64,000 bases of DNA, from positions 3,100,001 to 3,164,000 of the forward strand of contig NZ_CP114909.1 of NCBI RefSeq assembly GCF_027497355.1. The letters are read 5' to 3'. The notes under the pieces are model-generated. The model was not told the DNA's origin, did not search any database, and saw only the letters and a program-made list of their open reading frames with translations. The position numbers and the translations under genes are program-made. Source of the DNA: Micromonospora sp. WMMA1947 (GTDB lineage Bacteria; Actinomycetota; Actinomycetes; Mycobacteriales; Micromonosporaceae). Shown one piece after another: positions 7,716 to 27,127 of the stretch; position 1 is the stretch's first letter; each line of letters begins with the position of its first letter.

Positions 7716-7836
7716 CGCGCTCGGCCGCCCGGCCTGCGCACTCGTCGTCGCGGGCGGGGGCTGACCACCGCACGGGTCGATGCACCGTACCGTTGTTCGC
7801 AGCGGCGCGAGGCCGCGGTGCGTCGGGAGGTTCGCC

Positions 7837-8589
7837 ATGCCCAAGGGTGTCTCGTTCGCTCCAGTGCGCACCGTGAGGGCGTACGAGGGGATCGTCCGGC
7901 AGGTCGAGGAGCGGATCGCCGCCGGCGACCTGCGGCCGGGGGACCGGCTGCCCAGCGAGCGCGAGCTGACGACCCAGTTCGACGTGAGCAGGTCCACCGT
8001 GCGCGAGGCGCTGCGCGTGCTGGAGAGCAGCGGCCTGGTCCGCTCGCGCCCCGGTGACCCGCTCGGGCCGCAGGTGATCGCCTCGACCGCCTCGGCGATG
8101 CGCAAGCTGTTCGCCCGGGTCGTGGACAGCCGGCGGCTCGGCGTGGCGGAGCTGCTCCAGTTCCGGATGATCATCGAGTCGGCGGCCGGTTCGGTCGCCG
8201 CCCGGCTGGCGTCACCGTCCGAGTTGGACGAGCTGGAGCAGGCGCTGACGGGCATGCGGGACGCGGTGGCCGACGGCTACGAGGCGTTCAGCGCGGCGGA
8301 CGTCCGCTTCCACGAGCACGTCGCCCGGTTGTCGGGCAACGAGTTGCTCGTGCTCTGCCTCGACGCGGTACGGAGCATGGTGCTGGACCTCATCTCCACC
8401 AAGCTCGCGCAGGCCCCGGATCCGGAGGCCCTGATGGAGCGCACCTTGACACATCACCGGCGCGTCATCGACGCGATGCGGGCGGGCGAGGCCGACGAGG
8501 TGGCCCGGCTGACCCGGCAGGAGTTGCACCACTACTACGCCGAGTACGTGCCGGAGGCGCGTCGCTCGATGGTGGACGTATTGCTCTGA
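7837..8589 (+). CDS. FadR/GntR-family transcriptional regulator (FCD domain)
   Basis: 250 residues. An N-terminal GntR winged helix (about 14-75, with LPSERELTTQFDVSRSTVRE) is followed by an FCD ligand-binding domain containing the metal/ligand motifs DVRFHEHVARLSGN and LTHHRRVIDAM. Such proteins usually repress catabolic genes until an organic acid binds. The ATG is preceded by GGGAGG at a six-base distance. A perfect ACTGGT-CTG-ACCAGT site 69 bases beyond its stop, upstream of the P1 peptidase gene, fits the TNGTNNNACNA consensus of this subfamily, so that gene is the best candidate target. Confidence 0.88.
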   Translation: MPKGVSFAPVRTVRAYEGIVRQVEERIAAGDLRPGDRLPSERELTTQFDVSRSTVREALRVLESSGLVRSRPGDPLGPQVIASTASAMRKLFARVVDSRRLGVAELLQFRMIIESAAGSVAARLASPSELDELEQALTGMRDAVADGYEAFSAADVRFHEHVARLSGNELLVLCLDAVRSMVLDLISTKLAQAPDPEALMERTLTHHRRVIDAMRAGEADEVARLTRQELHHYYAEYVPEARRSMVDVLL

Positions 8590-10939: not shown

Positions 10940-12460
10940 TTACTTCTTGGACACCTTGGTGACGTCGAAGGACTGGGTCACCGCGTCCTTCGGGTAGCCC
11001 TCGACGCCGTCGCGGATCACGGCCAGGTTCGGCAGCAGGAAGAGCCAGTCGCTGGCCGCCTCCTGCGAGATGACCTTCGCGGCCTCGGCGAACTTCTTGT
11101 CCCGGGTCGCCGCGTCCAGGGCCGTGTCGGCCTCGTTCATGAGCTGCGTGACGGCCGGGTTCTTGTAGCGGTAGTAGTAGTCCGGCTGGCCGTAGCGGAC
11201 CAGGTCACGCGGCTCCACGTGGGCGATGATCGACAGGTCGTAGTTGGCCTTGCCGAGCACCTTGTCGAGCCACTGCGGCATCTCGACGTTGTTCTGGGTC
11301 ACCTTGATGCCGACCTCGGCGAGCTGCGAGGCGACGAACTGCGCGGAGGCGCGGGCGTAGCCGGGCGGCGGGACGTCCATGGTCAGGGTGAGCCCGTTGG
11401 CGTGACCGGCGTCGGCGAGCAGCTGCTTGGCCTTGGCGGGGTCGTGCGGGAAGTCGCCGGTGCGGTCCTCGTACCACGGGTCGCTCGGCGGCACCATGCT
11501 GCCGATCTTCGTGCCGTAGCCGGACCAGACGGTCTTGATGAGGGCGTCGTGGTCGATCGCGTGGCGGATGGCCTGGCGCACCCGGACGTCGGCCAGCGGG
11601 CCCTTGCTGTTGTTCATCGCCATGACGACCTCACCGGTCGTCTTGCCCTCGACCACCTCGAACTGCTTGTTGCCCTTGAAGACCTCGAGCAGCTGCGGCG
11701 CCTGGATGTTCGCCACGATGTCGAGCTGACCGGAGAGCATCGCGTTGTTCAGGGCGTTGGCGTCGGTGATGTAGCGGAAGACGGCGGTGGCTACCTTGGC
11801 CTTCTCGCCCCAGTAGCCGTCGTTGCGCACCAGCGTGATGCTGTCGCCGCGGTTCCACTTGTCGAACTTGAAGGGGCCGGTGCCGTTCGGCTTCGTGCCC
11901 AGGTCGGTGGCGTTCTCCTTGAGGACCACGCCGACGCGGCCGGCGACGTCGAACAGCCAGCTCTGGCTGGGCCGCGACAGCGTCACCTCCACGGTGGACG
12001 CGTCCGGCGACTCGACGGTCTTCACGACTGTCATCTGGGACTTGAACGGGTTCGTCGAGCCCTCCGCGGTCACCCGCTTGAAGCTCCACACCACGTCCTG
12101 CGCGGTGAGCTTCTGGCCGTCGTGGAAGGTCACGTTTTCGCGGAGCTTGAACGTGTACTTGGTGCCGTCGTCGGACATCTTCCACTCGGTGGCCAGCAGC
12201 GGCTCCACCTCGCCGGTGTCCGCGTTCTGGCGCACCAGGCCCTCGTACACGTTGTAGAGCAGGACCTGCGGGATCGCGGCGCCGGCCTCGGCGGTCAGGT
12301 CGAGGCTCACCGGCTCGAGGTAGGCACCGAGGGTGACCGTACCGTTGCCGGAACCACCACCGCCGGTGGTGGTCTCCGAGTCACCATCGCTACTGCACGC
12401 GGTCAGAGCCAGCGCCGTGGCGAGCAGCACGGCGGGCAGCGTTATCTTCAGCCGATTCAT
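10940..12460 (-). CDS. ABC transporter solute-binding lipoprotein, oligopeptide/dipeptide type
   Basis: 506 residues. A lipoprotein signal peptide with lipobox LTAC (about residues 19-22) is followed by a Gly/Thr-rich linker and an SBP_bac_5 domain, with YNVYEGLVRQ, WKMSDDGTKYTFKLRENVTFHDG and VRQAIRHAIDHDALI. It captures a peptide-like or other small ligand outside the membrane and delivers it to the permeases. No permease follows it. The matching permeases and ATPases are on the opposite strand at 19067-22705, across the divergent regulator, so the transporter seems split between two operons. The start at 12460 is chosen because it gives a proper signal peptide; the Shine-Dalgarno sequence is weak. 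Substrate unknown; the neighbouring sulfatase and FGE suggest a sulfate ester. Confidence 0.9.
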   Translation of the reverse strand: MNRLKITLPAVLLATALALTACSSDGDSETTTGGGGSGNGTVTLGAYLEPVSLDLTAEAGAAIPQVLLYNVYEGLVRQNADTGEVEPLLATEWKMSDDGTKYTFKLRENVTFHDGQKLTAQDVVWSFKRVTAEGSTNPFKSQMTVVKTVESPDASTVEVTLSRPSQSWLFDVAGRVGVVLKENATDLGTKPNGTGPFKFDKWNRGDSITLVRNDGYWGEKAKVATAVFRYITDANALNNAMLSGQLDIVANIQAPQLLEVFKGNKQFEVVEGKTTGEVVMAMNNSKGPLADVRVRQAIRHAIDHDALIKTVWSGYGTKIGSMVPPSDPWYEDRTGDFPHDPAKAKQLLADAGHANGLTLTMDVPPPGYARASAQFVASQLAEVGIKVTQNNVEMPQWLDKVLGKANYDLSIIAHVEPRDLVRYGQPDYYYRYKNPAVTQLMNEADTALDAATRDKKFAEAAKVISQEAASDWLFLLPNLAVIRDGVEGYPKDAVTQSFDVTKVSKK

Positions 12461-12513
12461 TCGTGTGTCCCATCGCGAAGAACGCCAAGGGCGCTCGTAG
12501 CCTGTGAGGCGGG

Positions 12514-12542
12514 ACACTATGAGCGTGGTACCCGATGCAAAA
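12514..12542 (-). promoter_or_regulatory. Candidate promoter for the solute-binding protein gene
   Basis: On the minus strand TTTTGC (12537-12542) and TAGTGT (12514-12519) are separated by 17 bases, 54 bases before the start codon. It would allow expression independent of the upstream FGE gene. Confidence 0.35.
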
Positions 12543-12584
12543 GGGCCAGTTCAGCGGGGTCGGCAGGTACCAATCAGCATCCGG

Positions 12585-13541
12585 CTACCGGGCCACGCGG
12601 AACCCGGTGTTGCCACTCGAGGAGTCAACGGTGGTCCGACTCCGTGCTGCCACGCGGTATCTGTTGCAGTAGGAGTCGTGGCAGAGATACGAACCACCCC
12701 TGATGACGCTCTCACCTGGTGAGATGCGGCCTCGATGGTCGCGCCAGGGTTCGGCCGTGAGTTCCCAAACGTTGCCCGCGACGTCGTACAGGCCGTAGCC
12801 GTTCGGCGGAAACGCGGTCACCGGAGAGGTGCCCACGAACCCGTCGTCCGCGGCGTTGACAGCGGGGAAGGTGCCCTGCCAGATGTTGCACAGGTGCCGC
12901 CCGCCCGGGGTCAGCTCGTCGCCCCAGGCGTAGCGGGCCTGGGACAGGCCGCCGCGCGCCGCGTACTCCCACTCCGCCTCGGCGGCCAGCCGGGTGCCGG
13001 ACCACAGGCAGTACGCCTCGGCGTCCCGCTGGGAGACGTGCACGACCGGATGCTGCTCGCGTCCGCGTACGTCCGAACCGGGCCCGTCCGGGGCGGCCCA
13101 GTGCGCCCCCTCGACCGCCAGCCACCAGGGTGCGCCCGGCACCGTGGCGTCGAGTACCCACGAGCGTGCGGACGGCGCCAGCAGCAGGTGGAAGACGAAC
13201 GACCAGCCGTACCGTTCCGCGTCCGTGCGGTAGCCGGTGGCGTCGACGAAGCGGGCGAACTGCCGGTTCGTCACCGGTGTCGCGGCGATCTCGAACGGCG
13301 CCACGGTCACCGGGCGGACCGGCCCCTCCAGATCCTCCGGGAAGCCCTCCGGATCGTCGGTGCCCATGAGGAAGGTGCCGCCGGGCAGCGCGATCAGGCC
13401 CTCCGTACCGGCGGGGCCGGCGCGGACGGCGCTCGGGCCGGACGTCGATCCGGCGGCGGCGGGCGGGCGTTTCGGCGCGCAACACGGCGACGGCGGAGGG
13501 CTTCCTCCGCCGTCGCCGTGTTCAGCCGATTCGGTGCTCAC
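12585..13541 (-). CDS. Formylglycine-generating enzyme (sulfatase-modifying factor, SUMF1/FGE)
   Basis: 318 residues. FGE oxidises the active-site cysteine of type I sulfatases to C-alpha-formylglycine. The domain runs from LPGGTFLMG (51-59) to the end and is close in pattern to Streptomyces coelicolor FGE. The copper-binding cysteine pair is present as Cys287 and Cys292 in YLCHDSYCNRYRVAAR, with the same five-residue spacing as Cys272/Cys277 there. An N-terminal CCAPKR motif (20-25) of the kind seen in many bacterial FGEs supports the GTG start at 13541. No signal peptide is seen, so it acts in the cytosol. It lies seven bases after the LeuB-like gene, surely in the same transcript. A target, the CSPTR sulfatase, is encoded at 23466 in the same island. 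Confidence 0.93.
   Translation of the reverse strand: MSTESAEHGDGGGSPPPSPCCAPKRPPAAAGSTSGPSAVRAGPAGTEGLIALPGGTFLMGTDDPEGFPEDLEGPVRPVTVAPFEIAATPVTNRQFARFVDATGYRTDAERYGWSFVFHLLLAPSARSWVLDATVPGAPWWLAVEGAHWAAPDGPGSDVRGREQHPVVHVSQRDAEAYCLWSGTRLAAEAEWEYAARGGLSQARYAWGDELTPGGRHLCNIWQGTFPAVNAADDGFVGTSPVTAFPPNGYGLYDVAGNVWELTAEPWRDHRGRISPGESVIRGGSYLCHDSYCNRYRVAARSRTTVDSSSGNTGFRVAR
13481..13522 (-). other. Perfect hairpin inside the first codons of FGE
   Basis: A perfect 19-bp stem (13481-13499 with 13504-13522, loop GCTT) lies at about nucleotides 20-61 of the FGE coding sequence, just after the LeuB-like gene. It looks like a terminator but is within the gene; it may act as an attenuator that lowers FGE expression relative to the upstream gene. 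Confidence 0.6.
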
Positions 13542-13548
13542 ATCCGCG

Positions 13549-14637
13549 CTACGCCGGCAGGGCGTCCGCCTGGTACGCGCCCTCGCCGATGACGGCCGCG
13601 ACCGCGTCGCCGAAGTCCTCGGTCGACATGCCCATCTCCGGCCCGCGCATGGCGCCCAGGCGCGGCAGCACCGCCTTCACGCCGTCCTCCAGGCTGCGGG
13701 CCGCCTCGGCGTGGCCCAGGTGCTCCAGCATCAGCGCGGCGCTGAGGATCGAGCCCGCGGGGTTGGCCCAGCCACGGCCGGCGATGTCCGGCGCGGAGCC
13801 GTGCACCGGCTCGAACATGCTCGGCGCCGACCCGGTCGGGTTGAGGTTGCCGCTCGCGGCCAGACCGAGACCGCCCTGCACGGCGGCGCCGAGGTCGGTG
13901 ATGATGTCGCCGAACAGGTTGTCGGTGACCACCACGTCGAACCGCTCCGGCTGCGTCACCAGGTAGAGGCACATCGCGTCGACGTGGACGTAGTCCACAG
14001 CGATGTCCGGGTACTCCGCGGCGACCTCCTCGAAGGTCCGCTGCCACAGGTCACCGGCGTACGTGAGGATGTTCGCCTTGTGCACCAGGGTCACGTGCTT
14101 GCGGCGGGTCAGGGCCAGCCGGAAACCGTGCCGGATGAGGCGTTCGACCCCCTTGCGGGTGTTGACCGACTCCTGGGTGGCGATCTCGTCCGGCCCGCCC
14201 CGGTGGATGAAGCCGCCGGCGCCGACGTACGCGCCCTCGGTGTTCTCCCGCAGGATCACCAGGTCGCACTGCTCGGGGCGCAGGCCGCCGATGGGCGTGG
14301 GTACGCCGGGCAGCAGCTTGACCGGCCGCAGGTTCACGTACTGGTCGAACGCGGTCCGCAGGTGGATCACCAGGCCGCGTTCGAGCACGCCGGGCGGCAC
14401 CGACGGGTCGCCGACGGCGCCGAAGAGAATGGCGTCCGCCTTGGCCAGTTCCTGCTCCACGTCCGGCGGTACGACCTGGCCGGTTATCCGCCAGTAGTCC
14501 GCGCCGAGTTCGTAGTCCTCCCAGACCAGGTCGATCCCGAACCGTCGGGCGGCGGCGTCGCACGCCTTGACCGCCTGCGCGGTGACCTCCGGTCCGATGC
14601 CGTCGCCGGGCACCAGCGCGATTCGCTGGGCGCTCAT
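13549..14637 (-). CDS. LeuB-type beta-decarboxylating dehydrogenase (3-isopropylmalate / tartrate dehydrogenase family)
   Basis: 362 residues. It has the NAD-dependent isocitrate/isopropylmalate dehydrogenase fold: VPGDGIGPEV at the start, NLRPVKLLPG, LVHKANILTY (catalytic Lys), DNLFGDIITD and EPVHGSAPDIAG. It resembles actinobacterial LeuB, but the substrate-pocket helix reads ERGLVIHLRTAFDQYVNLRP. Glu and the first Leu of the E-LL pocket are kept, the second Leu is Val, and FDQY-N-RP also resembles tartrate dehydrogenase. The ATG at 14637 follows GGGGTGGA. It leads the operon with FGE and a solute-binding protein and has no leucine genes nearby, so a catabolic role on a 3-substituted malate or similar 2-hydroxy acid is inferred. 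It could still be the cell's LeuB. Confidence 0.82.
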   Translation of the reverse strand: MSAQRIALVPGDGIGPEVTAQAVKACDAAARRFGIDLVWEDYELGADYWRITGQVVPPDVEQELAKADAILFGAVGDPSVPPGVLERGLVIHLRTAFDQYVNLRPVKLLPGVPTPIGGLRPEQCDLVILRENTEGAYVGAGGFIHRGGPDEIATQESVNTRKGVERLIRHGFRLALTRRKHVTLVHKANILTYAGDLWQRTFEEVAAEYPDIAVDYVHVDAMCLYLVTQPERFDVVVTDNLFGDIITDLGAAVQGGLGLAASGNLNPTGSAPSMFEPVHGSAPDIAGRGWANPAGSILSAALMLEHLGHAEAARSLEDGVKAVLPRLGAMRGPEMGMSTEDFGDAVAAVIGEGAYQADALPA

Positions 14638-14822
14638 GAGTCCACCCCTGTCCGCGTGCAGGAGACCGTCACCTGCCATCGCCCGGCCAAGCGTGGCGGG
14701 AACGGGCCCTCCGCAACAGGTCCAGGTCTCCGGCTAGGCTGGTACCAGCGGGACGCACAGGGCGTGTGCAGGGCGTACGACGACGGGACGAGGCGAGACC
14801 CCCGCGGAGGTGGGAGGTCGAG
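14638..14822. promoter_or_regulatory. Divergent control region between LeuB-like operon and mocR
   Basis: This 185-base gap separates the two divergent operons of the island. It contains direct AGGTC repeats (AGGTCCAGGTC), a palindrome CTGGTACCAG (14739-14748) and a possible plus-strand -10 TAGGCT (14735-14740). MocR regulators often bind direct repeats near their own promoter. Assignment is tentative. Confidence 0.4.
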
Positions 14823-16349
14823 GTGGCGGATTTCCTGCTGCCGGTCAACCCGCAGAGCACGGTTCCGCTCTACGAGCAGATCATCACCGGGCTCGAGGAC
14901 GCCATCCTCGCCGGGCAGTACGACGACGGCCCGCTGCCGAGCACGCGCCGCCTGGCCGAGGCGCTCGGCGTCTCCCGGAACACGGTGCTGACCGCGTACG
15001 ACCGGCTCATGGAGCAGGGGCTGATCGTGACCGTCCCGCGCCGCGGTCTCTACGTCTCCTCGGACGCGGTGGTGCGGATGCGGGCCGCGCGGCGGACCAC
15101 CCGTTCGCCGATGCAGCCGATCGACTGGGCGGCGCGGCTACCGGAACCGCCCCCGACTCCGGTGCACCGGGATCCGGCGTGGGCGCGGGCGCCGTTCCCC
15201 TTCGTGGTCGGCCAGCCCGACCCCACCATGTTTCCGATCGGCGCGTGGGAACGGGCGCAGCGTGAGGCGCTGCGGCAGGACGGGCTGACCCGGGTCATCG
15301 GGGACGCCGGCCAGGCCGACGACCCGGAGCTGGTGCGTCAGCTCTGCGAGCACGTGCTGCCCGCGCGCGGCATCTCCGCCCGTCCGGACCAGGTGATGAT
15401 CACGCTGGGCTCGACGCACGCGCTGCACCTGCTGGCGAGCGTCCTCGTCCGGCCGGGCAGCGTGGTGCTCGTCGAGGACCCGGGCTACCCGGACGCGCGG
15501 ACGATCATGCAGATGGCCGGTGCCGACGTGGTGCCCGGCGCGGTCGACGAGGACGGCCTGGTCGTCGAGGACCTGCCGGCGGACCTGCACGGCGCCCAGC
15601 TCGTCTACGTCACGCCGAGCCACCAGTACCCGACCGGCGCGACCATGTCGGCGTCCCGGCGTGAGGAGCTGCTGCGGCGGGCGGGAGCGGCGGACGCGGT
15701 CGTGATCGAGGACGACTACGACCCCGAGATGACGTTCCGCGGAATGCCCGCGGTGGCGGTGCGGGCCCTCGACGACGAGGACCGCGTGGTCTACCTCGGC
15801 AGCTTCAGCAAGCTGCTGGCACCGGGCCTGCGGCTCGGCTACGTGGTGGCGTCCCCGGCGCTCGTGGACGCCATGCGGGCCCGCTCCCGCTACGTGCTGC
15901 GTCACCCGCCCGGCCCGATGCAGCGCGCCCTCGCCCAGATGATCGCCAGCCGCGACCTGGCCCGTCACGTGCGTCGCGTCCGCGCCCACTACCAGGGGCT
16001 GTACGAGGAGATGGTGCGGGCGGTCGAGCGGCACGTGCGCTGGGGGCCGCAGCCGGTGCCGCGCGGCGGGCTGGCACGGTGGATCACCGGCCCGCCGGGG
16101 CTGGACGCCGGGGAACTCGCCCGCGAGCTGCGCCGGCAGGGCGTGCTGCTGGACCCGGGCGCGCCGTACTGGGCCACCCGGCCGGCGCCGCGTCACCACC
16201 TGCGCCTGGGGTACCAGGTGATGCCGCTGGACCGCATCGACGAGGGCGTGCGGCGGGTCGTGGAGGCCGTAGAAGTCCAGGTCCGGCCAGGGCTGGTACC
16301 CCCACCGACCCGGAAACTGGACGTTCCCCTCCGGGGTCGGAGTTCGTAA
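14823..16349 (+). CDS. MocR/GabR-type PLP-dependent transcriptional regulator
   Basis: 508 residues. A GntR winged helix (about 12-75; LPSTRRLAEALGVSRNTVLTAYDRL) is fused to a fold-type I aminotransferase domain. The PLP lysine is Lys330 in GSFSKLLAPGLRLGY, and IEDDYDPE (296-302) provides the cofactor aspartate. Family members (GabR, TauR, PdxR) sense amino compounds through PLP and switch nearby catabolic operons. The GTG start at 14823 follows GGGAGG and gives a normal N-terminus. It is divergent from the LeuB-like operon and is followed after 11 bases by the M20 hydrolase, so it probably controls both arms of the island. An amine-containing inducer is inferred. Confidence 0.9.
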   Translation: MADFLLPVNPQSTVPLYEQIITGLEDAILAGQYDDGPLPSTRRLAEALGVSRNTVLTAYDRLMEQGLIVTVPRRGLYVSSDAVVRMRAARRTTRSPMQPIDWAARLPEPPPTPVHRDPAWARAPFPFVVGQPDPTMFPIGAWERAQREALRQDGLTRVIGDAGQADDPELVRQLCEHVLPARGISARPDQVMITLGSTHALHLLASVLVRPGSVVLVEDPGYPDARTIMQMAGADVVPGAVDEDGLVVEDLPADLHGAQLVYVTPSHQYPTGATMSASRREELLRRAGAADAVVIEDDYDPEMTFRGMPAVAVRALDDEDRVVYLGSFSKLLAPGLRLGYVVASPALVDAMRARSRYVLRHPPGPMQRALAQMIASRDLARHVRRVRAHYQGLYEEMVRAVERHVRWGPQPVPRGGLARWITGPPGLDAGELARELRRQGVLLDPGAPYWATRPAPRHHLRLGYQVMPLDRIDEGVRRVVEAVEVQVRPGLVPPPTRKLDVPLRGRSS

Positions 16350-16360
16350 CCTCCGACGCC

Positions 16361-17605
16361 ATGACGTCGGACACCCACGCCTCCCTCCGCGCCGGCCATC
16401 TCGTGGACGAGCAAGCCGTCGTGACGCTGACCCAGGACCTGGTCCGCATCCCCTCGACCTGGGACGCGGGGCGCGGGCGCAGCGAGCAGCCCGCGGCGGA
16501 ACTCGTCGCGGAGGTCATGCGAGGTTTCGGATGGCGACCGGACGTCACCGAGGTCGTCCCCGGGCGTCCCAACGTCGTCGCGGTGGTCGACGGTGGCCTG
16601 CCCGGCCCGACGCTGATGTTCGAGGGGCACACCGACGTCGTCACCGAGGGCGCTCCCGAGGAGTGGACTGTCGACCCGTTCGGCGGCGACATCGTCGACG
16701 GGCGGCTGTACGGTCGCGGCTCCGCCGACATGAAGGCCGGTGTCGCCGCGATGATCCACGCGACCCGGGCCGTCGAGCTGGCCGGGCCGTTCCCGGGCCG
16801 GATCGTGGTGGCGGCCCTGGTGGACGAGGAGGGCCAGATGCTCGGGGCGAAGCACTTCACCACGACGCCGCTGGCCGGTGAGGTGGACGCCGCGATCATC
16901 TGCGAGCCGGAGGCGGAGGAGATCTGCGCGGTCGCCAAGGGCGCCGTCCGGCTGCTGGTCACCTGCACCGGCAAGATGGCGCACGGCGCGATGCCGCAGC
17001 ACGGCCGCAACCCCGTCCCCGCGGTGGCCGAGCTGGTCGCCGCGCTCGGCCGGTACCAGAAGGAGCTGCAGGCCGACCCGGGTGAGCACGAGCACCTCGG
17101 CCTGACGTTCCTGACCCCCACGGTCCTGGACGCCGGCTCCGCCGACCAGCTCAACGTCATCCCCGGCCGCGCCGTGCTCGGCGTGGACTGCCGGACCGTA
17201 CCCGGTGTCGACCACGCCGCGCTCGCCGCGCGCGTCCGCTCCGACGCCGACGCCATCGGCGCCCGGCACGGCGTCACCTTCGCCGTCGAGGTCGTCGACG
17301 ACCGGCCGTGCGCGGTCACCCCGGAGGACCACCCGATCTCGCTCGCCGTGGCCGACGCGCACCGCGCCGTCACCGGCGCCGAGCCGGTCTTCGGTGGTGT
17401 GCCCGGCGCGACCGACGGCACGATCCTGTGGCGCGACAGCGGCATCCCGAACGTCGTGTACGGCCCGGGCCCGAAGTGGATCGCCCACCAGCCCGACGAG
17501 TACGTCGAGGTCGACGACATCGTCCGCAAGACGAAGGTCTACGCCGAGGCGGCGCTGGCCTTCCTCAACGGGGCCACCGGCGCCCGGTCGGGTGCGGCGT
17601 CGTGA
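16361..17605 (+). CDS. M20-family metallo-amidohydrolase (ArgE/DapE/CPG2 type)
   Basis: 414 residues. The two-zinc M20 fold is clear: MFEGHTDVV supplies His90 and the bridging-site Asp92, GRGSADMKAG Asp123, VDEEGQ Glu156/157, CEPEAEE another acidic ligand and IAHQPDEY the final His. A lid/dimerisation domain lies in between (MAHGAMPQHGRNPVPA). It should hydrolyse an N-acyl or peptide-like amide bond. No signal peptide, so it acts on imported substrate. ATG 16361 is used. Its stop overlaps the next GTG by four bases, showing tight co-translation with the aldehyde dehydrogenase. Exact substrate unknown. Confidence 0.88.
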   Translation: MTSDTHASLRAGHLVDEQAVVTLTQDLVRIPSTWDAGRGRSEQPAAELVAEVMRGFGWRPDVTEVVPGRPNVVAVVDGGLPGPTLMFEGHTDVVTEGAPEEWTVDPFGGDIVDGRLYGRGSADMKAGVAAMIHATRAVELAGPFPGRIVVAALVDEEGQMLGAKHFTTTPLAGEVDAAIICEPEAEEICAVAKGAVRLLVTCTGKMAHGAMPQHGRNPVPAVAELVAALGRYQKELQADPGEHEHLGLTFLTPTVLDAGSADQLNVIPGRAVLGVDCRTVPGVDHAALAARVRSDADAIGARHGVTFAVEVVDDRPCAVTPEDHPISLAVADAHRAVTGAEPVFGGVPGATDGTILWRDSGIPNVVYGPGPKWIAHQPDEYVEVDDIVRKTKVYAEAALAFLNGATGARSGAAS

Positions 17606-19044
17606 CCGCGCAGGAGCTGCTGAACGCGCTGCCCGCCGGCCTGCCGATCGGCGCGGGCTGGACCACCACCGCGCAGACCGCGCCGGTCCGGTTCCCGTAC
17701 GACGGCAGCATCGTGACCCAGGCGCCGTGGGGCGACATCGCCGACGGGGAGGCGGCTGTCGAAGCCGCGCGGGAGGTCGCCGCGGAGATGGCCGGCCTGC
17801 CCGGTCACCGGCGGCGCGCGATCCTGACGACAGTCGCCGCCGAGGTGCGCGCCCGCGCCGACGACCTCGCCGAGCTGCTGGTCCTGGAGACCGGCAAGCC
17901 GCTCGTCGACTGCCGGGTCGAGGTCGCCCGCACGCTTGTCACGCTGGAGACCGCCGCCGAGGAGGTCGGGCACCTGACCGGCGAGACGGTGGCACTGGAC
18001 ATGCAGCCGGCCGGCGAGGGCATGCTCGGCTTCTGGGTGCGCCGCCCGGTCGGTGTCGTCGTCGGCATCACCGGGTTCAACTACCCCCTGCTCCTGGCCG
18101 CCCACAAGGTCGCGCCGTCGGTCGCGGCGGGCTGCCCGGTGATCGTCAAGCCGGCGCCGAACACGCCGCTGGCCACGCTGGTGCTGGTCGACCTGTTCCG
18201 CCGGGCGGGCTGCCCGGCCGCCGGGGTCCAGCTCGTCACCGGTGGCGTCGAGGTCGGCAAGCTCCTGACCACGCATCCCGGCGTCGCCGCCGTGTCGTTC
18301 ACCGGGTCCGCGCAGGTCGGCCACCAGATCGCCCGCGCCGCGGCCCCGCGCAAGGTGCTGCTCGAACTCGGGTCCAACGCGGCGCTCGTCGTCGGCCGCG
18401 ACGCCGACCTGGACCGGGCCGCGGAAGCGGTCGTACGCGGGGGGTTCTACGCCTCCGGTCAGGCGTGCATCAGCGTGCAGCGGGTGATCGTCGAGGAGCC
18501 GGTCCGCGAGGCGCTGCTGGAACGCCTCCGGCCGCTGCTGGCTACGGTCACCACCGGCGACCCCCGGTCCGCCGGCACCCGGGTGTCCGCACTGGTGGAC
18601 GAGGCGTCCACCGAGCGGGTCCACTCGTGGGTGGATCGCGCGGTCGCCGCCGGTGCGCGCTGCCTGGCCGGCGGTACGGCGCAGGGCCGGGTGCTGCAGC
18701 CGACGGTGCTCGTCGACGTCCCCGAGGACGCCGAGTGCTGGGCGGAGGAGATCTTCGGCCCGGTGGTCTGCGTCCGGTCGGTGCCGGACATGGACGCGGC
18801 GGTCGAGCTGGTCAACAGGTCGCGCTACGGGCTCCAGGCCGCCGTCTTCACCCGTGATCTGGCGGTGGCCCTGGACGTCGTGCGCCGTCTCGACGTCGGC
18901 GGGGTGCTCGTCAACGAGGTGCCCGGCTTCCGCGCCGACAACATGCCGTACGGCGGCGTCAAGGACTCCGGCATCGGCCGGGAGGGACCGCGCTTCGCCA
19001 TGGAGGAGCTGACCGTGACCAAGATGGTGATGATCAGGCCATGA
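17602..19044 (+). CDS. NAD(P)-dependent aldehyde dehydrogenase
   Basis: 480 residues, the usual length. GITGFNYPLLL carries the catalytic Asn160, LELGSN the general base Glu255 and GGFYASGQAC the nucleophile Cys289. The usual ELGGK is changed to ELGSN, which is also seen in glyceraldehyde-, lactaldehyde- and sulfolactaldehyde-type enzymes, but the substrate cannot be fixed from this. The GTG start overlaps the stop of the M20 gene. The position between an amidohydrolase and a transporter fits oxidation of an aldehyde formed in the island's pathway, perhaps by the SDR at 22702. Confidence 0.88.
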   Translation: MTAQELLNALPAGLPIGAGWTTTAQTAPVRFPYDGSIVTQAPWGDIADGEAAVEAAREVAAEMAGLPGHRRRAILTTVAAEVRARADDLAELLVLETGKPLVDCRVEVARTLVTLETAAEEVGHLTGETVALDMQPAGEGMLGFWVRRPVGVVVGITGFNYPLLLAAHKVAPSVAAGCPVIVKPAPNTPLATLVLVDLFRRAGCPAAGVQLVTGGVEVGKLLTTHPGVAAVSFTGSAQVGHQIARAAAPRKVLLELGSNAALVVGRDADLDRAAEAVVRGGFYASGQACISVQRVIVEEPVREALLERLRPLLATVTTGDPRSAGTRVSALVDEASTERVHSWVDRAVAAGARCLAGGTAQGRVLQPTVLVDVPEDAECWAEEIFGPVVCVRSVPDMDAAVELVNRSRYGLQAAVFTRDLAVALDVVRRLDVGGVLVNEVPGFRADNMPYGGVKDSGIGREGPRFAMEELTVTKMVMIRP

Positions 19045-19066
19045 TTCGGAGTGGGAGCACACACGC

Positions 19067-20011
19067 ATGGTGATCTACTTCGTCCGGCGGCTGGCCATCC
19101 TCGCGGTATCCCTGTTCGCCGCGTCGATCCTCGTCTTCACGATGCTGTCGCTGCTGCCGGGCGACCAGGCGCAGGCGATGCTGGGTGTGAACGCCACCCC
19201 CGAGGCGCTGGAGGCGCTGCGGGAACAGTTCGGGACGAACCGCCCGTTCACCGAGCGGTACCTCGACTGGGCCGGCGGCCTGATCCGCGGTGACTTCGGC
19301 ATCTCGCCGCTCAGCGGGGTGTCGGTCGGCTCGGAGATCGCCGACAAGCTCGGCGTGACGGTGCCGCTGATCCTGGCCGGGATGACGCTCGCGCTGCTCA
19401 TCGCCGTGCCGCTGGGCATCCTCGCCGCCGTGAAGAGCCGGACCGCGATCGGGACGGCGCTGTCGGCGCTGAGCCAGGTCGGCATCGCCGTGCCGTCGTT
19501 CTGGCTCGGCATCCTGCTCATCACCGTGTTCGCGGTGAAGCTGCAGTGGCTGCCCGCCGGCGGGTTCACCGGATGGGACGACGTCGGCGGCGCCGTGCAG
19601 GCCCTGCTGATGCCGGCGCTGGTCCTCGGCGTGGCCCAGGGCGCGATCCTGATGCGCTACGTCCGGTCCGCGGTGGTCGAGGTCATGCAGGAGGACTTCA
19701 TCCAGACCGCGCGGGCCAAGGGGCTCAGCCGCTCGCAGGCGCTGACCCGGCACGCGCTGCGCAACGCGGCCATCCCGGTCATCACCGTCCTCGGTCTGCA
19801 ACTCGCGACGCTGCTCATCGGCACCGTCGTGATCGAGAACGTCTTCGGCCTGCCCGGTCTCGGCCGGATGCTGCTGCAGGACGTCGGCAACCGCGACCTG
19901 CTGAAGGTGCAGGGCACCGTGATGGTGCTGACCGCCGCGGTGCTTCTGATCAACTTCGTCGTCGACGTGGTGTACCACGCGGTCGACCCCAGGCTGAGGA
20001 GCAAGGCATGA
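19067..20011 (+). CDS. ABC transporter permease, DppB/OppB type
   Basis: 314 residues with six predicted membrane helices; the first (LAILAVSLFAASILVFTML) is at the N-terminus. The EAA loop that contacts the ATPase reads DFIQTARAKGLSRSQALTRHALRNA near the middle of the C-terminal half. It forms the membrane channel with the DppC-type permease. Start ATG 19067 is preceded by GGGAG nine bases away. It overlaps the next gene by ATGA. Confidence 0.93.
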   Translation: MVIYFVRRLAILAVSLFAASILVFTMLSLLPGDQAQAMLGVNATPEALEALREQFGTNRPFTERYLDWAGGLIRGDFGISPLSGVSVGSEIADKLGVTVPLILAGMTLALLIAVPLGILAAVKSRTAIGTALSALSQVGIAVPSFWLGILLITVFAVKLQWLPAGGFTGWDDVGGAVQALLMPALVLGVAQGAILMRYVRSAVVEVMQEDFIQTARAKGLSRSQALTRHALRNAAIPVITVLGLQLATLLIGTVVIENVFGLPGLGRMLLQDVGNRDLLKVQGTVMVLTAAVLLINFVVDVVYHAVDPRLRSKA

Positions 20012-20892
20012 CATCAGTCGCCGACGCCCCACCGGACGCCACCGCCGACGTCGTCGCGGCCGGCCCGGTCAAGCCGCGCCGCCGCTGGAACCTCACGCTG
20101 GTGATCGGCGCCGGCCTGGTGGGCCTGGTCGTCCTCACCGCGCTGGTGTCGTTCCTCTGGACGCCGTACGACCCCACCCGGGTCGACCCGTCGCAGACGC
20201 TGCTCTCCCCGGGCGGGGACCACTGGCTCGGCACCGACCACTTCGGCCGGGACATCGTCAGCCAGCTCCTCGTCGGCGCGCGGACCACCCTGTTCGTCGG
20301 TGTCGTCGCCGTCGCGATCGCCGCCGCTGTGGGCGTACCCCTGGGTCTGCTCGCCGCCACCGGGCACCGCTGGCTCAGCGAGCCGGTGATGCGGGCGCTG
20401 GACATCGTGTTCGCCTTCCCGGCCATCCTGCTGGCGATCATCCTGGCTGCCGGCTTCGGCGCCTCCACCCTCACCGGCATGATCGCCATCGGCGTCGCCA
20501 ACGTGCCGGTGTTCGGCCGCCTCACCCGGGCCGGCGCGATGCAGGTGCTGCAGAGCGACTTCGTGCTCGCCGCGCGCAGCTACGGCCGCCGGGGCGTGGT
20601 GCTCATGGTCCGGTACGTGCTGCCCAACATCGCCGCCCTGCTCATCGTGCAGGCGTCGGTGTCGTTCGCGCACGCGGTGCTCGCCGAGGCGGCGCTGTCC
20701 TACCTCGGGTACGGCACCCCGCCACCGACCCCCACCTGGGGCCGGATGCTCCAGGAGGCCCAGAACTACTTCGTCGTGCAGCCGATGCTCGCCGTCTGGC
20801 CCGGTCTGGCCATCGCCCTGTCGGTGCTCGGCTTCAACCTCATGGGCGACGGGCTGCGCGACGCCCTCGACCCGCGGCTGAGAGGACGGTGA
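20008..20892 (+). CDS. ABC transporter permease, DppC/OppC type
   Basis: 294 residues. A short cytosolic N-terminus is followed by a first helix (LTLVIGAGLVGLVVLTALVSF), the conserved HWLGTDHFGRDIVSQLLVGAR segment typical of DppC and the EAA loop DFVLAARSYGRRGVVLMVRYVLPN. It pairs with the DppB-type permease. It overlaps its neighbours at both ends (ATGA with dppB, GTGA with dppD), so the transporter subunits are translationally coupled. GAGGAG precedes the start. Confidence 0.93.
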   Translation: MTSVADAPPDATADVVAAGPVKPRRRWNLTLVIGAGLVGLVVLTALVSFLWTPYDPTRVDPSQTLLSPGGDHWLGTDHFGRDIVSQLLVGARTTLFVGVVAVAIAAAVGVPLGLLAATGHRWLSEPVMRALDIVFAFPAILLAIILAAGFGASTLTGMIAIGVANVPVFGRLTRAGAMQVLQSDFVLAARSYGRRGVVLMVRYVLPNIAALLIVQASVSFAHAVLAEAALSYLGYGTPPPTPTWGRMLQEAQNYFVVQPMLAVWPGLAIALSVLGFNLMGDGLRDALDPRLRGR

Positions 20893-21884
20893 GCGGCGTG
20901 AGCGGGCTCGTGGTGGAGGACCTCGTCGTCAAGGTCCACGACATCCAGGCCGTCAAGGGCGTCTCGTTCGAGATCGGGCGGGGCCGGCGGATGGGGCTGA
21001 TCGGCGAGTCCGGCTGCGGCAAGTCCCTGACCGCGCTCGCGCTGATGGGCCTGCTGCCCCACGGCGTGACGGCGTCGGGCCGGGTGTTGCTGAACGGCCG
21101 GAACCTGCTCGACCTGTCCGACAAGGAGATGTGCGCGGTCCGCGGCAACGACATCGCCATGGTGTTCCAGGAGCCGATGACGGCGCTCAACCCGCTGATG
21201 CGGGTCGGCAACCAGGTCGCCGAGTCACTGCGGCTGCACAAGGGGATGAGCCGCGCGGCGGCCTCCGCCCGGGCCACCGAACTGCTCGAACGGGTCCAGC
21301 TGCCCGAGCCCGACCGGACCGCGCGCAAGTACCCGCACCAGCTCTCCGGCGGTCAGCGGCAGCGCGTCGTACTGGCCATCGCGCTGGCGTGCGACCCGGC
21401 CGTGCTGGTCGCGGACGAGCCCACCACGGCGCTGGACGTCACGGTGCAGGCGGAGATGCTGCGGCTGATGGACACGCTGGTGCGCGAGGAGGGCGCGTCG
21501 CTGCTGCTCATCACGCACGACCTGCCGGTCGTCGCCAGCATCTGCGAGGAACTGCTCGTCATGTACGGCGGCTCGATCGTCGAGCACGGCGACGTGGCGA
21601 CGGTGTTCGACTCGCCCCGGCACCCGTACACGGCGGGCCTGCGGGCGTCCACGGTGCTGGAGAGCACCGACGGAAGCGGCCGGCTGTCGACGATCCCGGG
21701 CCGCGTCCCGTCGCTCGGGTCGTTCCCCACCGGCTGCGTGTACCGCAACCGCTGCCCGCGCGCCGACGACGTCTGCGCCACGGTGCCGCTGCTGACGGCG
21801 CCGCCCGGCAGCAACCAGCGGGCGGCCTGCCACCACCCCATCGAGAGCGACCAGCCCCTAGGAAGCGGGAAGGCCAGCGCATGA
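20889..21884 (+). CDS. ABC transporter ATP-binding protein, DppD/OppD type
   Basis: 331 residues. Walker A GESGCGKS, Q-loop, signature LSGGQRQR, Walker B VLVADEPTTALD and the C-terminal oligopeptide domain with the cysteine-containing segment CVYRNRCPRADDVC, typical of the iron-sulfur/oligo-HPY extension of DppD. It powers transport with the DppF-type ATPase. GTG 20889 overlaps the previous stop; GTG 20898 is an alternative with better spacing from AGAGGAC. Confidence 0.93.
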   Translation: MSGVSGLVVEDLVVKVHDIQAVKGVSFEIGRGRRMGLIGESGCGKSLTALALMGLLPHGVTASGRVLLNGRNLLDLSDKEMCAVRGNDIAMVFQEPMTALNPLMRVGNQVAESLRLHKGMSRAAASARATELLERVQLPEPDRTARKYPHQLSGGQRQRVVLAIALACDPAVLVADEPTTALDVTVQAEMLRLMDTLVREEGASLLLITHDLPVVASICEELLVMYGGSIVEHGDVATVFDSPRHPYTAGLRASTVLESTDGSGRLSTIPGRVPSLGSFPTGCVYRNRCPRADDVCATVPLLTAPPGSNQRAACHHPIESDQPLGSGKASA

Positions 21885-22705
21885 CCACCACCCCGTTGCT
21901 GGAAGCCGTCGACGTGGTGCGCGAGTACCGCGCCCCGCGGCGGTCGCTGCGTACGCCGGGCCAGCCGATCCGCGCGCTCGACGGCGTGAGCGTGCAGGTC
22001 CACGAGGGCGAGGCGTTCGGCATCGTGGGGGAGAGCGGCTCCGGCAAGTCCACGCTGTCGCGCATCCTCATGGCCCTCGACCGGCCGACGTCCGGCACCG
22101 CGTTCTACAACGGGCAGCGGATCAGCGGCGTACCGGAGCGGAAGCTCGCGTTCCTGCGCCGCGACGTGCAGATGGTGCTGCAGGACCCGATGTCGTCGCT
22201 GAACCCGCGGATGCGCGTCGCGGACATCATCGCGGAGCCGATGCGCGCGCTGCGCCTGCCCGGCGACCACCGGGCCCGCGTGGCCGAGCTGATGCACTCG
22301 GTGGGCCTGCCCGAGGAGGCGGTGACCCGCTACCCGCACCAGTTCTCCGGCGGCCAGCGGCAGCGCATCGCCATCGCCCGCGCCCTCGCGGCCGGGCCGA
22401 AGGTCATCGTCGGCGACGAGCCGGTCAGCGCGCTCGACGTCTCGGTCCGCGCGCAGATCCTCAACCTGCTCACCGACCTGGCCGAGCAGTTCAAGCTGAC
22501 CCTGATCCTGGTCTCCCACGACCTGTCCGTGGTCCGGTACCTCTGCGACCGGATCGCGGTGATGAACCAGGGCCGGATCGTCGAGACGGGTGACACCGAA
22601 TCGATCTACTCCGACCCCCGGCACCCCTACACCCAGAGGCTGCTGTCCGCGGTGCCCACCCTGAGCGGCGACCTCCTGGACCGATTCAACAGGAGCAGCA
22701 CATGA
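21881..22705 (+). CDS. ABC transporter ATP-binding protein, DppF/OppF type
   Basis: 274 residues. Walker A GESGSGKS, QDPMSSLNPRM (characteristic of the OppF/DppF branch), signature FSGGQRQRIAIARAL and Walker B VIVGDEPVSALDVS. The protein ends soon after the DPRHPYTQRLL motif. It is slightly shorter than typical DppF because the C-terminal oligo-HPY part is minimal. It overlaps dppD upstream and the SDR gene downstream by four bases each. Confidence 0.93.
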   Translation: MTTTPLLEAVDVVREYRAPRRSLRTPGQPIRALDGVSVQVHEGEAFGIVGESGSGKSTLSRILMALDRPTSGTAFYNGQRISGVPERKLAFLRRDVQMVLQDPMSSLNPRMRVADIIAEPMRALRLPGDHRARVAELMHSVGLPEEAVTRYPHQFSGGQRQRIAIARALAAGPKVIVGDEPVSALDVSVRAQILNLLTDLAEQFKLTLILVSHDLSVVRYLCDRIAVMNQGRIVETGDTESIYSDPRHPYTQRLLSAVPTLSGDLLDRFNRSST

Positions 22706-23457
22706 GGTTGGTTGACCGCGTCGCCGTCGTCACCGGAGGCGCCAGCGGCATCGGACTGGCCACCGTCGGCCGGCTCGTCGAGGAGGGCGCGCGCGTCGTC
22801 ATCGCCGACCTCGACGGCGACCGCGCCGCCAAGGCGGCCGCCGACTTCGGGTCCGCCGTCGTCGGCGTGGCCTGCGACGTCACCCGGGCCGCCGACTGCC
22901 GCGCCGCCGTCGAGACCGCCGTCGAGCGGTTCGGCCGGCTCGACCTCATGCACGCCAACGCCGGTACGCCGTTCACCGGCCCGCTGGACGAGGTGGACCA
23001 GGCGACGCTGGACCGCGTGGTCGACGTCAACCTCAAGGGCGCGTTCTGGACCGCGCAGGCCGCCGCGCCCGCGCTGATCGAGGCCGGTGGCGGCGCGATC
23101 GTGTTCACCGCGTCGCTGCAGGCGGTCATCGCCCGCCCCCGGTACGCGCCGTACACCGCCGCCAAGCACGGCGTCATCGGTCTGATGAAGGCGCTGGCGC
23201 TGGAACTCGCGCCGCACGGCGTCCGGGTCAACGCGATCGCCCCGGCGGCGACCGAGACGCCGATGCTCTCGGCGTTCCTCGGCGGGATGGGTGACGTGCC
23301 GGACAGCGCCCGGGAGAACTTCCGGGCGTCGATCCCGCTGGGACGCATGGCGACGCCGCGCGACTCCGCCGACGCGGTGGTGTTCCTCGCCAGCGACGAG
23401 GCGCGAATGGTGACGGGCCACACGCTCGTCCTCGACGGCGGCACGACGGCCGGCTGA
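22702..23457 (+). CDS. Short-chain dehydrogenase/reductase
   Basis: 251 residues, classical SDR. The cofactor motif is TGGASGIG (residues about 12-19), ADLDGD after the second strand points to NAD, HANAG is the NNAG equivalent, and the catalytic set is Ser of TASLQ with YTAAK. It ends GHTLVLDGG as usual. It probably oxidises an alcohol to a ketone or aldehyde. It is translationally coupled to the transporter ATPase and followed eight bases later by the sulfatase, so an alcohol released by desulfation is an attractive substrate (inference). Confidence 0.9.
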   Translation: MRLVDRVAVVTGGASGIGLATVGRLVEEGARVVIADLDGDRAAKAAADFGSAVVGVACDVTRAADCRAAVETAVERFGRLDLMHANAGTPFTGPLDEVDQATLDRVVDVNLKGAFWTAQAAAPALIEAGGGAIVFTASLQAVIARPRYAPYTAAKHGVIGLMKALALELAPHGVRVNAIAPAATETPMLSAFLGGMGDVPDSARENFRASIPLGRMATPRDSADAVVFLASDEARMVTGHTLVLDGGTTAG

Positions 23458-23465
23458 GGCGTCCC

Positions 23466-25766
23466 GTGACCAGTTCGCTGGCGGACCCTCCGTACGAGGG
23501 CACGATCGGGCGCACCTACCACGAGTCGACGGAGCACTGGAGCGCGCCGCAGTGGGCCGCCCCGGGCACCCCGAACGTGGTGTACGTGCTGCTGGACGAC
23601 GTCGGGTTCGCCGACTTCGGCTGCTTCGGCGCCGAGATCGACACCCCGACGATCGACCGGCTGGCCGCGTCCGGGCTGCGGTACACCAACTTCCACACCT
23701 CGCCGCTGTGCTCGCCGACCCGGGCCAGCGTGCTCACCGGCCGCAACCACCACAGCGTCGGCATGCGCATGCTGTCCAACTTCGACAGCGGCTTCCCCAG
23801 CGGGCGGGGGCGGATCACCCACGCCGCCGCCACCGTCGCGGAGATGCTCGGCGACGCCGGGTTCAACACCATGGCGGTCGGCAAGTGGCACGTCGCGCCG
23901 CTGGAGCACACCACGCCGTCCGGCCCGTACGACCAGTGGCCGCTGGGCCGTGGCTTCGAGCGGTACTACGGCTTCCTGGAGGCCGAGACCGACAACTTCT
24001 ATCCGGAACTGGTGTACGACAACCACCAGGTGGACCCGCCGGCCACCCCGGAGGAGGGCTACCACCTGACCGAGGACCTGACCGACCGGGCCATCGGGTT
24101 CGTCCGGGACCAGACCTCGTTCACCCCGGAGAAGCCGTTCTTCCTGTATCTGGCGTACGCCGCCGCGCACGCGCCGCACCAGGCCCCGCCGGAGTACCTG
24201 GCGAAGTACCGGGGCCGCTACGACGCCGGCTGGGACGTCATCCGCGCGGACCGGCACCGGAGGCAGATCGGGCTCGGCATCGTCCCGCCGGACGCGCCGC
24301 TGCCACCGCACAACCCCGGCGTCGTCCCGTGGGACGACGTGCCGCCGGAGCAGCGGCGCCTGTTCGCCCGCATGCAGGAGGCGTACGCGGCGATGGTCGA
24401 CCACACCGACGCCCAGCTCGGGCGCCTGGTCGACTTCCTGGAGCGGATCGGCCGGCTCGACAACACGATCTTCGTGGTCATGTCGGACAACGGGGCGAGC
24501 CCCGAGGGCACGCCGCTGGGCACGCTCAACCCGACCGCGTTCCAGAACCGGGTGCCGGAGAACCTCCAGGACAGCCTGGCCCGGATCGACGAGATCGGCG
24601 GCCCGCGCGCGCAGAGCAACTATCCGCTGGGCTGGGCCCAGGTCAGCAACACCCCGTTCCGCCGCTACAAGCAGCACACCCACGAGGGCGGGGTCCGGGT
24701 GCCGTTCGTGCTGAGCTGGCCGGCCGGTGACGTACCCGGCGGGGGAGTGCGGACGCAGTTCCAGCACAGCATCGACGTCACCGCGACGGTGCTGGACCTC
24801 GTCGGGGTGCAGCCGCCCGCGGTGCGCCGGGGCGTCCCGCAGATGCCGCTGCACGGCCGTAGCTTCCGCGACGGGCTGCGCGACCCGGCGGCGCCACCGT
24901 CACGGGACCGCCAGTACTTCGAGATGTTCGGCCACCGCGGCATCTACCACCAGGGCTGGAAGGCTGTCGCGTTCCACGAGCGGGGCACCTCGTGGGACGA
25001 GGACCGCTGGGAGCTGTACCGGATCGACGAGGACCCGACCGAGAGCCGCGACCTGGCCGCCGAGCATCCGGAGGTGCTGCGGCGCCTCATCGAGGAGTTC
25101 TGGATCGAGGCGGCCCGCTACGACGTGCTGCCGCTGGACGACAGGGGATTCGCGGTTCGGGCCCGGGTGCCGCGACCCGGATCGGTACGGGACCGGCTGG
25201 ACTTCACCTACCTGGCGGGCGTACCGACGATCTCCGGCGCGGCGGTGCCGCCGACGATGAACCGCTCGCACGCCATCACCGCCCGGGTGCACCGCACCGA
25301 CGCCACCCAGGGCGGCGTGATCGTGGTGCTCGGCAACGTCAGCGGCGGCTACGTGCTGCACATCCAGGACAACCACCTGGTGTACGAGTACAACCACCTC
25401 GGCACCCACTACGTGCTGCGGTCCGAGGGCGAGTTGCCGCTGGGCCCGGTGGAGCTGACCTTCGAGCTGACCAAGACCGCCGACTGCCAGGGCACCGGCC
25501 GCCTGTTCGTGGACGGCGAGGCGGCGGGCGAGGCGCTGTTCCCGCGGTTGCTGCCGTTCTTCCACGGGTTCGCCGGCATGGACGTCGGGCGCAGCATCCA
25601 CTCGCCGGTGTCGCCGAGCTACCCGGCCCGGCACGAGTTCTCCGGCGAGCTGGAGTACGTGCGGTTCCGGCTCGCCGCGTCCGAGGAGGTGGGTGAGCCC
25701 ATCGCCCCGGCGGGCGACGTCGCGCCGCGTCCGTCGGCCGGCGTCGGGTTCGAGGTCGTGGACTGA
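23466..25766 (+). CDS. Type I (formylglycine-dependent) sulfatase, arylsulfatase family
   Basis: 766 residues, similar in length to the large actinobacterial arylsulfatases. The metal-binding pair Asp44-Asp45 (VLLDDVGFAD) and the signature CSPTRASVLTGR starting at Cys82 mark a type I sulfatase whose Cys82 must be converted to formylglycine. AVGKWHV and MSDNGASPEG supply further active-site Lys, His, Asp and Asn. After about residue 560 comes a beta-rich C-terminal domain. There is no signal peptide, so the enzyme should work in the cytosol after import of an intact sulfate ester. The GTG start at 23466 is nine bases after the SDR stop. The maturation enzyme FGE is encoded in the divergent arm of the same island. 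The exact sulfate ester is unknown. Confidence 0.93.
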   Translation: MTSSLADPPYEGTIGRTYHESTEHWSAPQWAAPGTPNVVYVLLDDVGFADFGCFGAEIDTPTIDRLAASGLRYTNFHTSPLCSPTRASVLTGRNHHSVGMRMLSNFDSGFPSGRGRITHAAATVAEMLGDAGFNTMAVGKWHVAPLEHTTPSGPYDQWPLGRGFERYYGFLEAETDNFYPELVYDNHQVDPPATPEEGYHLTEDLTDRAIGFVRDQTSFTPEKPFFLYLAYAAAHAPHQAPPEYLAKYRGRYDAGWDVIRADRHRRQIGLGIVPPDAPLPPHNPGVVPWDDVPPEQRRLFARMQEAYAAMVDHTDAQLGRLVDFLERIGRLDNTIFVVMSDNGASPEGTPLGTLNPTAFQNRVPENLQDSLARIDEIGGPRAQSNYPLGWAQVSNTPFRRYKQHTHEGGVRVPFVLSWPAGDVPGGGVRTQFQHSIDVTATVLDLVGVQPPAVRRGVPQMPLHGRSFRDGLRDPAAPPSRDRQYFEMFGHRGIYHQGWKAVAFHERGTSWDEDRWELYRIDEDPTESRDLAAEHPEVLRRLIEEFWIEAARYDVLPLDDRGFAVRARVPRPGSVRDRLDFTYLAGVPTISGAAVPPTMNRSHAITARVHRTDATQGGVIVVLGNVSGGYVLHIQDNHLVYEYNHLGTHYVLRSEGELPLGPVELTFELTKTADCQGTGRLFVDGEAAGEALFPRLLPFFHGFAGMDVGRSIHSPVSPSYPARHEFSGELEYVRFRLAASEEVGEPIAPAGDVAPRPSAGVGFEVVD

Positions 25767-27113: not shown

Positions 27114-27127
27114 GTGTACCTCTCCCT

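Follow-up and report, generated by a model that had tools for sequence, protein, structure and literature searches.

A Micromonospora gene island with a sulfatase and a proposed role in the catabolism of a sulfated pantoyl amide

We analyzed a 64,000-nucleotide stretch of the Micromonospora sp. WMMA1947 genome (contig NZ_CP114909.1, positions 3,100,001 to 3,164,000; the whole stretch is called the window here). It holds a gene island that combines a sulfatase and a formylglycine-generating enzyme (FGE) with an importer, an amide hydrolase and several oxidoreductases. The catabolic block lies at about 7706-34500, as an insertion of about 26-27 kb between meaB/w7317 and the gene for methylmalonyl-CoA mutase. 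A preliminary description had listed the genes at 10940-25766, and Pfam and NCBIfam searches bore that list out: SBP_bac_5, FGE-sulfatase, Iso_dh, MocR (GntR plus aminotransferase), Peptidase_M20, Aldedh, two BPD_transp_1, two ABC_tran/oligo_HPY, SDR and Sulfatase. Its borders were too tight, as the unit reaches out on both sides. On the left it continues with a GntR-FCD regulator and a secreted S58 peptidase (7780-10237). On the right (25845-34012) it continues with E2, E1 beta and E1 alpha of a second 2-oxoacid dehydrogenase of branched-chain type (here called BKDH), followed by a class III aminotransferase, a (methyl)malonate-semialdehyde dehydrogenase (MMSDH) and a PucR-type regulator. The features are as follows, in window coordinates.

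7780..8589, plus strand: GntR/FCD regulator (Pfam FCD and GntR)
8780..10237, plus strand: S58 (DmpA-like) peptidase, secreted (Pfam Peptidase_S58 1.5e-55; signal peptide by eye)
10940..12460, minus strand: substrate-binding lipoprotein of the importer (SBP_bac_5)
12585..13541, minus strand: formylglycine-generating enzyme, Cys287/Cys292 (Pfam 5.6e-74)
13549..14637, minus strand: LeuB-type beta-decarboxylating dehydrogenase, proposed 3,3-dimethylmalate dehydrogenase (Pfam Iso_dh; PRK03437)
14717..14749, no strand: putative operator between the arms, CAGGTCCAGGTC repeat and GCTGGTACCAGC palindrome
14826..16349, plus strand: MocR-type regulator, start inferred (GntR helix-turn-helix and aminotransferase-like domain)
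16361..17605, plus strand: M20 amidohydrolase, proposed pantothenate hydrolase (Pfam Peptidase_M20; TIGR01910 above cut-off)
17602..19044, plus strand: aldehyde dehydrogenase, proposed 4-dehydropantoate dehydrogenase (Pfam Aldedh 1.8e-139)
19067..20011, plus strand: importer permease B (BPD_transp_1)
20008..20892, plus strand: importer permease C (BPD_transp_1)
20889..21884, plus strand: importer ATPase D (ABC_tran/oligo_HPY)
21881..22705, plus strand: importer ATPase F (ABC_tran/oligo_HPY)
22702..23457, plus strand: SDR oxidoreductase, proposed pantoate 4-dehydrogenase (SDR family)
23466..25766, plus strand: cytoplasmic formylglycine sulfatase, Cys82 in CSPTR (Pfam 1.3e-64)
25845..27116, minus strand: BKDH-type E2, start approximate (Pfam 2-oxoacid_dh, Biotin_lipoyl, E3_binding)
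27128..28102, minus strand: BKDH-type E1 beta
28131..29261, minus strand: BKDH-type E1 alpha (Pfam E1_dh)
29378..30784, minus strand: class III aminotransferase, proposed beta-alanine transaminase (Pfam Aminotran_3; PRK06062 above cut-off)
30730..32262, minus strand: CoA-acylating (methyl)malonate-semialdehyde dehydrogenase (TIGR01722 717 bits, cut-off 448.5)
32375..34012, plus strand: PucR-type regulator

The plus arm runs from the MocR regulator through the M20 enzyme, the aldehyde dehydrogenase (ALDH), permeases B and C, ATPases D and F and the SDR to the sulfatase. It reads as one operon because the gaps are only -4 to 22 bp, and the sulfatase gene, starting 8 bp after the SDR, belongs to it. 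The minus arm carries the LeuB-like dehydrogenase, the FGE and the binding protein, with gaps of 7 and 124 bp on the chosen starts. Comparison with the copy in another Micromonospora genome, G279, gave ratios of non-synonymous to synonymous substitution of 0.075-0.33 for 18 genes (G and L numbers are our handles for genomes and loci). The MocR regulator fuses a GntR helix-turn-helix to an aminotransferase-like domain and scores 366 bits against the PdxR model (cut-off 320). In the candidate operator, the CAGGTCCAGGTC repeat was invariant in five aligned sequences, and the GCTGGTACCAGC palindrome was imperfect in three of the five. An exact-match scan of the window revealed no second copy near any island promoter.

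The sulfatase carries C82SPTR (a CxPxR motif) together with GKWH and SDNG motifs, the sequence hallmarks of type I (formylglycine) sulfatases, and the FGE domain has the catalytic cysteine pair of the aerobic enzymes. Both Cys82 and the Cys287/Cys292 pair, which lies in RGGSYLCHDSYCNRYR, are exactly where they had been placed beforehand. It had also been said that neither protein has a signal peptide, and by eye neither N-terminus starts with a recognisable one. The closest solved structures to the sulfatase are the arylsulfatases 7all and 1hdh. Genome-wide, there are two sulfatase-domain matches (the other one at 62 bits) and three FGE-domain matches, and the second FGE, whose cysteine site was read, has a single cysteine there. 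Because candidates are so few and that second FGE has only one cysteine, the local FGE is probably the enzyme that matures the island sulfatase.

From the gene families we infer the substrate and every reaction. The Opp-type importer would take up a sulfated pantoyl amide, which the secreted S58 enzyme may first trim from a larger amide. The local FGE would mature the cytoplasmic sulfatase, which would strip the sulfate, and the M20 enzyme would cleave the amide to pantoate and beta-alanine. The SDR, ALDH and LeuB-like enzyme would carry pantoate through 4-dehydropantoate and 3,3-dimethylmalate to 2-oxoisovalerate and CO2, and the dedicated BKDH would turn 2-oxoisovalerate into isobutyryl-CoA. 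Beta-alanine would pass through malonate semialdehyde to acetyl-CoA by way of the class III aminotransferase and MMSDH. Because Iso_dh enzymes require a 2-hydroxy acid with an adjacent carboxylate, the acyl unit, read back through the ALDH and SDR, should be a 2,4-dihydroxy acid. The aminotransferase and MMSDH imply, in turn, that the nitrogen part of the amide is usable by both, as beta-alanine would be. In pantothenate, pantoate (2,4-dihydroxy-3,3-dimethylbutyrate) forms an amide with beta-alanine.

Classical pantothenate degradation proceeds by amide hydrolysis, alcohol oxidation, aldehyde oxidation and oxidative decarboxylation to 2-oxoisovalerate; in Pseudomonas fluorescens it is said to have been worked out in a 1966 enzymology series. 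Each of these steps has a candidate gene in the island. Unlike the Pseudomonas pathway, the island adds a sulfatase, an FGE and a peptide-type importer, has an actinobacterial host and is known from genes alone. The order proposed earlier (import, desulfation, amide cleavage, alcohol and aldehyde oxidation, oxidative decarboxylation) fits the genes, and the same activities lie together in Streptomyces with three different enzymes. The substrate suggested earlier, a sulfated N-acyl or peptide-like compound, can be narrowed down, as the BKDH and the beta-amino-acid arm point to a pantoyl amide. We dropped readings based on N-acylethanolamine-type compounds, tyrosine sulfate or choline sulfate, as the decarboxylating dehydrogenase, BKDH and aminotransferase would then have no role. 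We think it likely that the functional set leads from a sulfated amide to a branched acyl-CoA, and are more reserved, though still on the favourable side, about the pantoyl identity of the acyl unit. The reading that we prefer, with slightly more caution again, is that the island serves to break down a sulfated pantoyl amide, with a sulfate ester of pantothenate or pantetheine as the likeliest compound.

Sulfatase clusters in Streptomyces are evidence that the sulfatase and the amide pathway form one system. Apart from the copy in M. chalcea, the nearest sulfatases among the matches listed are about 60-64% identical (one reaches 66% over 74% of the length). A match at E 1e-240 or better was found in 4 of 295 Streptomyces genomes, and all four loci (L190-L197) encode FGE, sulfatase, SDR, ALDH, importer and Iso_dh. 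Next to these, again in all four, come a GntR-FCD regulator and an amidase-signature enzyme (its family assigned through similarity to L179, where Pfam gives it). Genes for E1 alpha, E1 beta and E2 then follow in two of the four, extra to another copy elsewhere. The FGE (54-56%), sulfatase (61-62%), ALDH (63-65%) and importer (42-65%) look orthologous to those of the island. In contrast, the SDR (37%) and Iso_dh (45%) are distant, the amidase-signature enzyme, which the M20 search does not match, stands in place of M20, and the gene order is different. This leaves two origins: the set came together on two occasions around a common core, or three enzymes of a single ancestral cluster were exchanged for others of the same activity. 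Both would be hard to explain unless the steps form one pathway that includes the sulfatase. Because all four loci pair them, the sulfatase and the amide pathway very likely belong together.

We profiled the distribution of the island in 151 Micromonospora genomes. The M20 gene is present in eight, at 90% identity or more in six. In these six (the genome of the window and five others, G241 and G279 among them), the sulfatase genes adjoin those for BKDH, class III aminotransferase and MMSDH. Island copies occur in M. tulbaghiae and M. chalcea (89-100% identical per protein) and in M. qiuiae (72-96%). A scatter of the homologues over related genomes, which had been named in advance as a sign against a shared pathway, is not what we observed: the island genes travel together. 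None of eight island-free congeners, drawn from twelve same-genus relatives with a mutase match, has an island gene between meaB and the mutase gene, and in two of the genomes (G003 and G205) the site holds as much as about 3.4 kb of other sequence. At the same site, G156 (L148) keeps the aminotransferase, MMSDH and PucR genes (window 29377-34073) and lacks window 7706-29376, in place of which it has about 1.3 kb of unaligned sequence. The insertion of about 26-27 kb may thus have been acquired in two steps, and the gap between meaB and the mutase gene may be a hot spot for insertions.

The lower part of the proposed pathway was profiled in the same genus. E1 beta is found at E 1e-120 or better in all 151 genomes, with two copies in eight among the matches listed. 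Six of these eight are the island genomes, in which one copy is 90-100% identical to the island E1 beta; the other two, G236 and G159, have no island-type copy (best 71% and 68%). The island encodes E1 alpha, E1 beta and E2 together, as expected for BKDH. The usual actinobacterial pyruvate dehydrogenase (PDH) has a single-chain E1, and we therefore read the two-chain E1 as BKDH. That the island has a 2-oxoacid dehydrogenase of its own hints at the product of the island decarboxylation. Among the 151 genomes, the aminotransferase is found at 87% identity or more in the six island genomes and G156.

Relatives of the island enzymes occur in many other actinobacterial loci, most of them simpler. 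We surveyed the best 80 of 211 confirmed M20-related loci, many on short contigs. Nearby genes were ALDH in 55, ATPase F in 55, GntR-FCD in 51, the binding protein in 48 and S58 in 34, and then Iso_dh in 5, MocR in 4 and sulfatase and FGE in 3. In other orders, the amide slot is filled by S58 (G384, G842) or by an amidase-signature enzyme (G1101, G919 and G1020 by Pfam; G831 by similarity), and an aminotransferase stands beside the module in G384 (75% identical, with MMSDH) and G1020 (72%). Alcohol, aldehyde and malate-type decarboxylating dehydrogenase families lie together in the island and in L163, L182, L183 and L190-L197. The sulfatase-free modules (L043, L063, L179, L182, L183) have an importer, an M20, S58 or amidase enzyme, ALDH, SDR and sometimes Iso_dh. 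They resemble the island in gene company and in their importer and ALDH (roughly 42-68% identical), but their matches include neither sulfatase nor FGE, and they usually have another SDR and a GntR regulator instead of MocR. We know of no published description of them.

Several loci vary this theme. Streptomyces loci L059, L060, L171 and others have a GntR-M20-ALDH-SDR module with an SSF symporter in place of the ABC importer, and some have a penicillin-amidase gene downstream. The symporter matches SSF; its best model is MctP, at a score below cut-off, and no PanF model is among its seven matches. In L083, a 2-oxoglutarate/Fe(II) oxygenase gene (12448-13602) sits between the S58 gene and the importer of an M20-related module. 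L037, a 4.2 kb contig of an Actinomycetales metagenome-assembled genome, has MocR, M20 and ALDH in island order (74, 81 and 65% identical). Searching plasmids with M20 gave one record, from Nonomuraea gerenzanensis, where the gene is unannotated. L025-L028 (G064, G122) hold four or five related sulfatase genes; like the island they combine these with an Opp-type importer and FGE, but they lack any M20, ALDH or Iso_dh match and their binding protein is about 31% identical.

One plasmid locus places relatives of the oxidative genes beside panC. Plasmid pDCT5 of Arthrobacter dokdonellae (L163) encodes a LeuB-like enzyme (56% identical to that of the island), ALDH (59%), SDR (31%) and FadR/GntR (about 48%), followed by panC (275 bits, model cut-off 213). 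A DUF2520 gene lies on the other side, and DUF2520 is a neighbour of panC elsewhere. The plasmid also bears genes for E2, acyl-CoA dehydrogenase, thiolase and the methylcitrate cycle, and part of the block is repeated near the end of the record.

Several observations weigh against the pantoyl reading. The LeuB-like enzyme passes the 3-isopropylmalate dehydrogenase model PRK03437 (492 bits, cut-off 393). The genome has a second Iso_dh gene, presumably the housekeeping LeuB, that is 60% identical to it. Proteins named 3-isopropylmalate dehydrogenase are closer (64-68% among the matches listed), and sequence alone therefore cannot separate the island enzyme from LeuB. An Iso_dh tree, built without G215 and G219, has a tartrate-dehydrogenase-like clade (M. 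globbae, MA102, G1101; support 100/100) and two LeuB-type clades on an unresolved backbone; the tartrate-type enzyme of L063 matches 480 plasmid records. The best NCBIfam models for the island E1 and E2 are PDH-type, below cut-off, and the name BKDH is our own. The extra BKDH is missing from two of the four Streptomyces loci. Iso_dh is nearby in only 5 of the 80 M20 loci, so many modules do without that step locally, and the panC link is a single plasmid. The beta-alanine arm could be independent of the rest, as G156 carries its aminotransferase, MMSDH and PucR genes alone. The orthologous parts shared by both sulfatase cluster types lowered our confidence slightly. Finally, an O-sulfated ester of pantothenate or pantetheine was not found in the literature searched. 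A mass-spectrometric study of saliva lists a tentative "sulfopantetheine" but does not give the position of the sulfur group, and we take it as no support (PMC11306311).

A different 2,4-dihydroxy acid in a sulfated amide, such as unbranched 2,4-dihydroxybutyrate (via malate to pyruvate) or another 3-alkyl acid, would obey the same logic, since the gene set fixes reaction types rather than the side chain. The slot is filled by two types of Iso_dh enzyme, and the PDH-type matches of E1 and E2, below cut-off, agree with it. However, the two-chain E1 and E2 that the island has for itself speak for a branched oxo acid, panC lies beside the related genes, and the aminotransferase and MMSDH suit beta-alanine, which makes another acyl unit unlikely. 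It is less likely still that the formylglycine enzyme has a phosphoester as its substrate, for instance 4'-phosphopantothenate or 4'-phosphopantetheine released when coenzyme A decays, with the rest unchanged. Sulfatases of this fold can be promiscuous, and phosphorylated pantothenates are common whereas sulfated ones were not found; yet the sulfatase motifs are intact, a canonical FGE adjoins and the closest structures are arylsulfatases.

The sulfatase and FGE could also have hitch-hiked as a pair that scavenges sulfate and has nothing to do with the amide pathway, in keeping with their rarity in the M20 survey and with G064 and G122, where sulfatases and FGE accompany another Opp importer but no amide genes. 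The shared operon, with an 8-bp gap after the SDR gene, and the presence of both genes with the module in all four Streptomyces loci make this very improbable. Marginally less likely still is a route for a sulfated N-acyl amino alcohol, by desulfation, alcohol oxidation to an N-acyl amino acid and M20 cleavage. It would employ the sulfatase, SDR, ALDH and M20 enzyme, and M20 enzymes often cut N-acyl amino acids, but the decarboxylating dehydrogenase, BKDH and aminotransferase would be idle although they recur with the module. We give hardly any credence to a chance cluster of ordinary genes, with the LeuB-like enzyme for leucine synthesis and BKDH and MMSDH for valine breakdown. The PRK03437 score would allow it, and MMSDH and BKDH serve valine breakdown generally, but a further Iso_dh gene (presumed LeuB) and a further E1 beta exist in the genome, and this combination of activities is seen again in several orders.

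A 2023 paper states that the protein responsible for pantothenase has yet to be identified (PMC10393543). None of the literature matches listed, few of which were examined in full, names genes for the pantothenate degradation route. We tentatively suggest that the island may be the first gene set for the use of pantothenate (vitamin B5) as food, and that some actinobacteria may import a natural O-sulfated pantothenate or pantetheine intact, desulfate it in the cytoplasm and burn it, with the amide, alcohol and decarboxylation steps filled by different enzymes in different genera. If this is true, the sulfate part would point to a sulfated form of the vitamin, of which we found no report in the literature searched. 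The island and its relatives offer hydrolase candidates from three alternative families (M20, S58 and amidase-signature), as well as candidates for the later steps. Because they name such candidates, the question of the hydrolase becomes testable with cloned enzymes.

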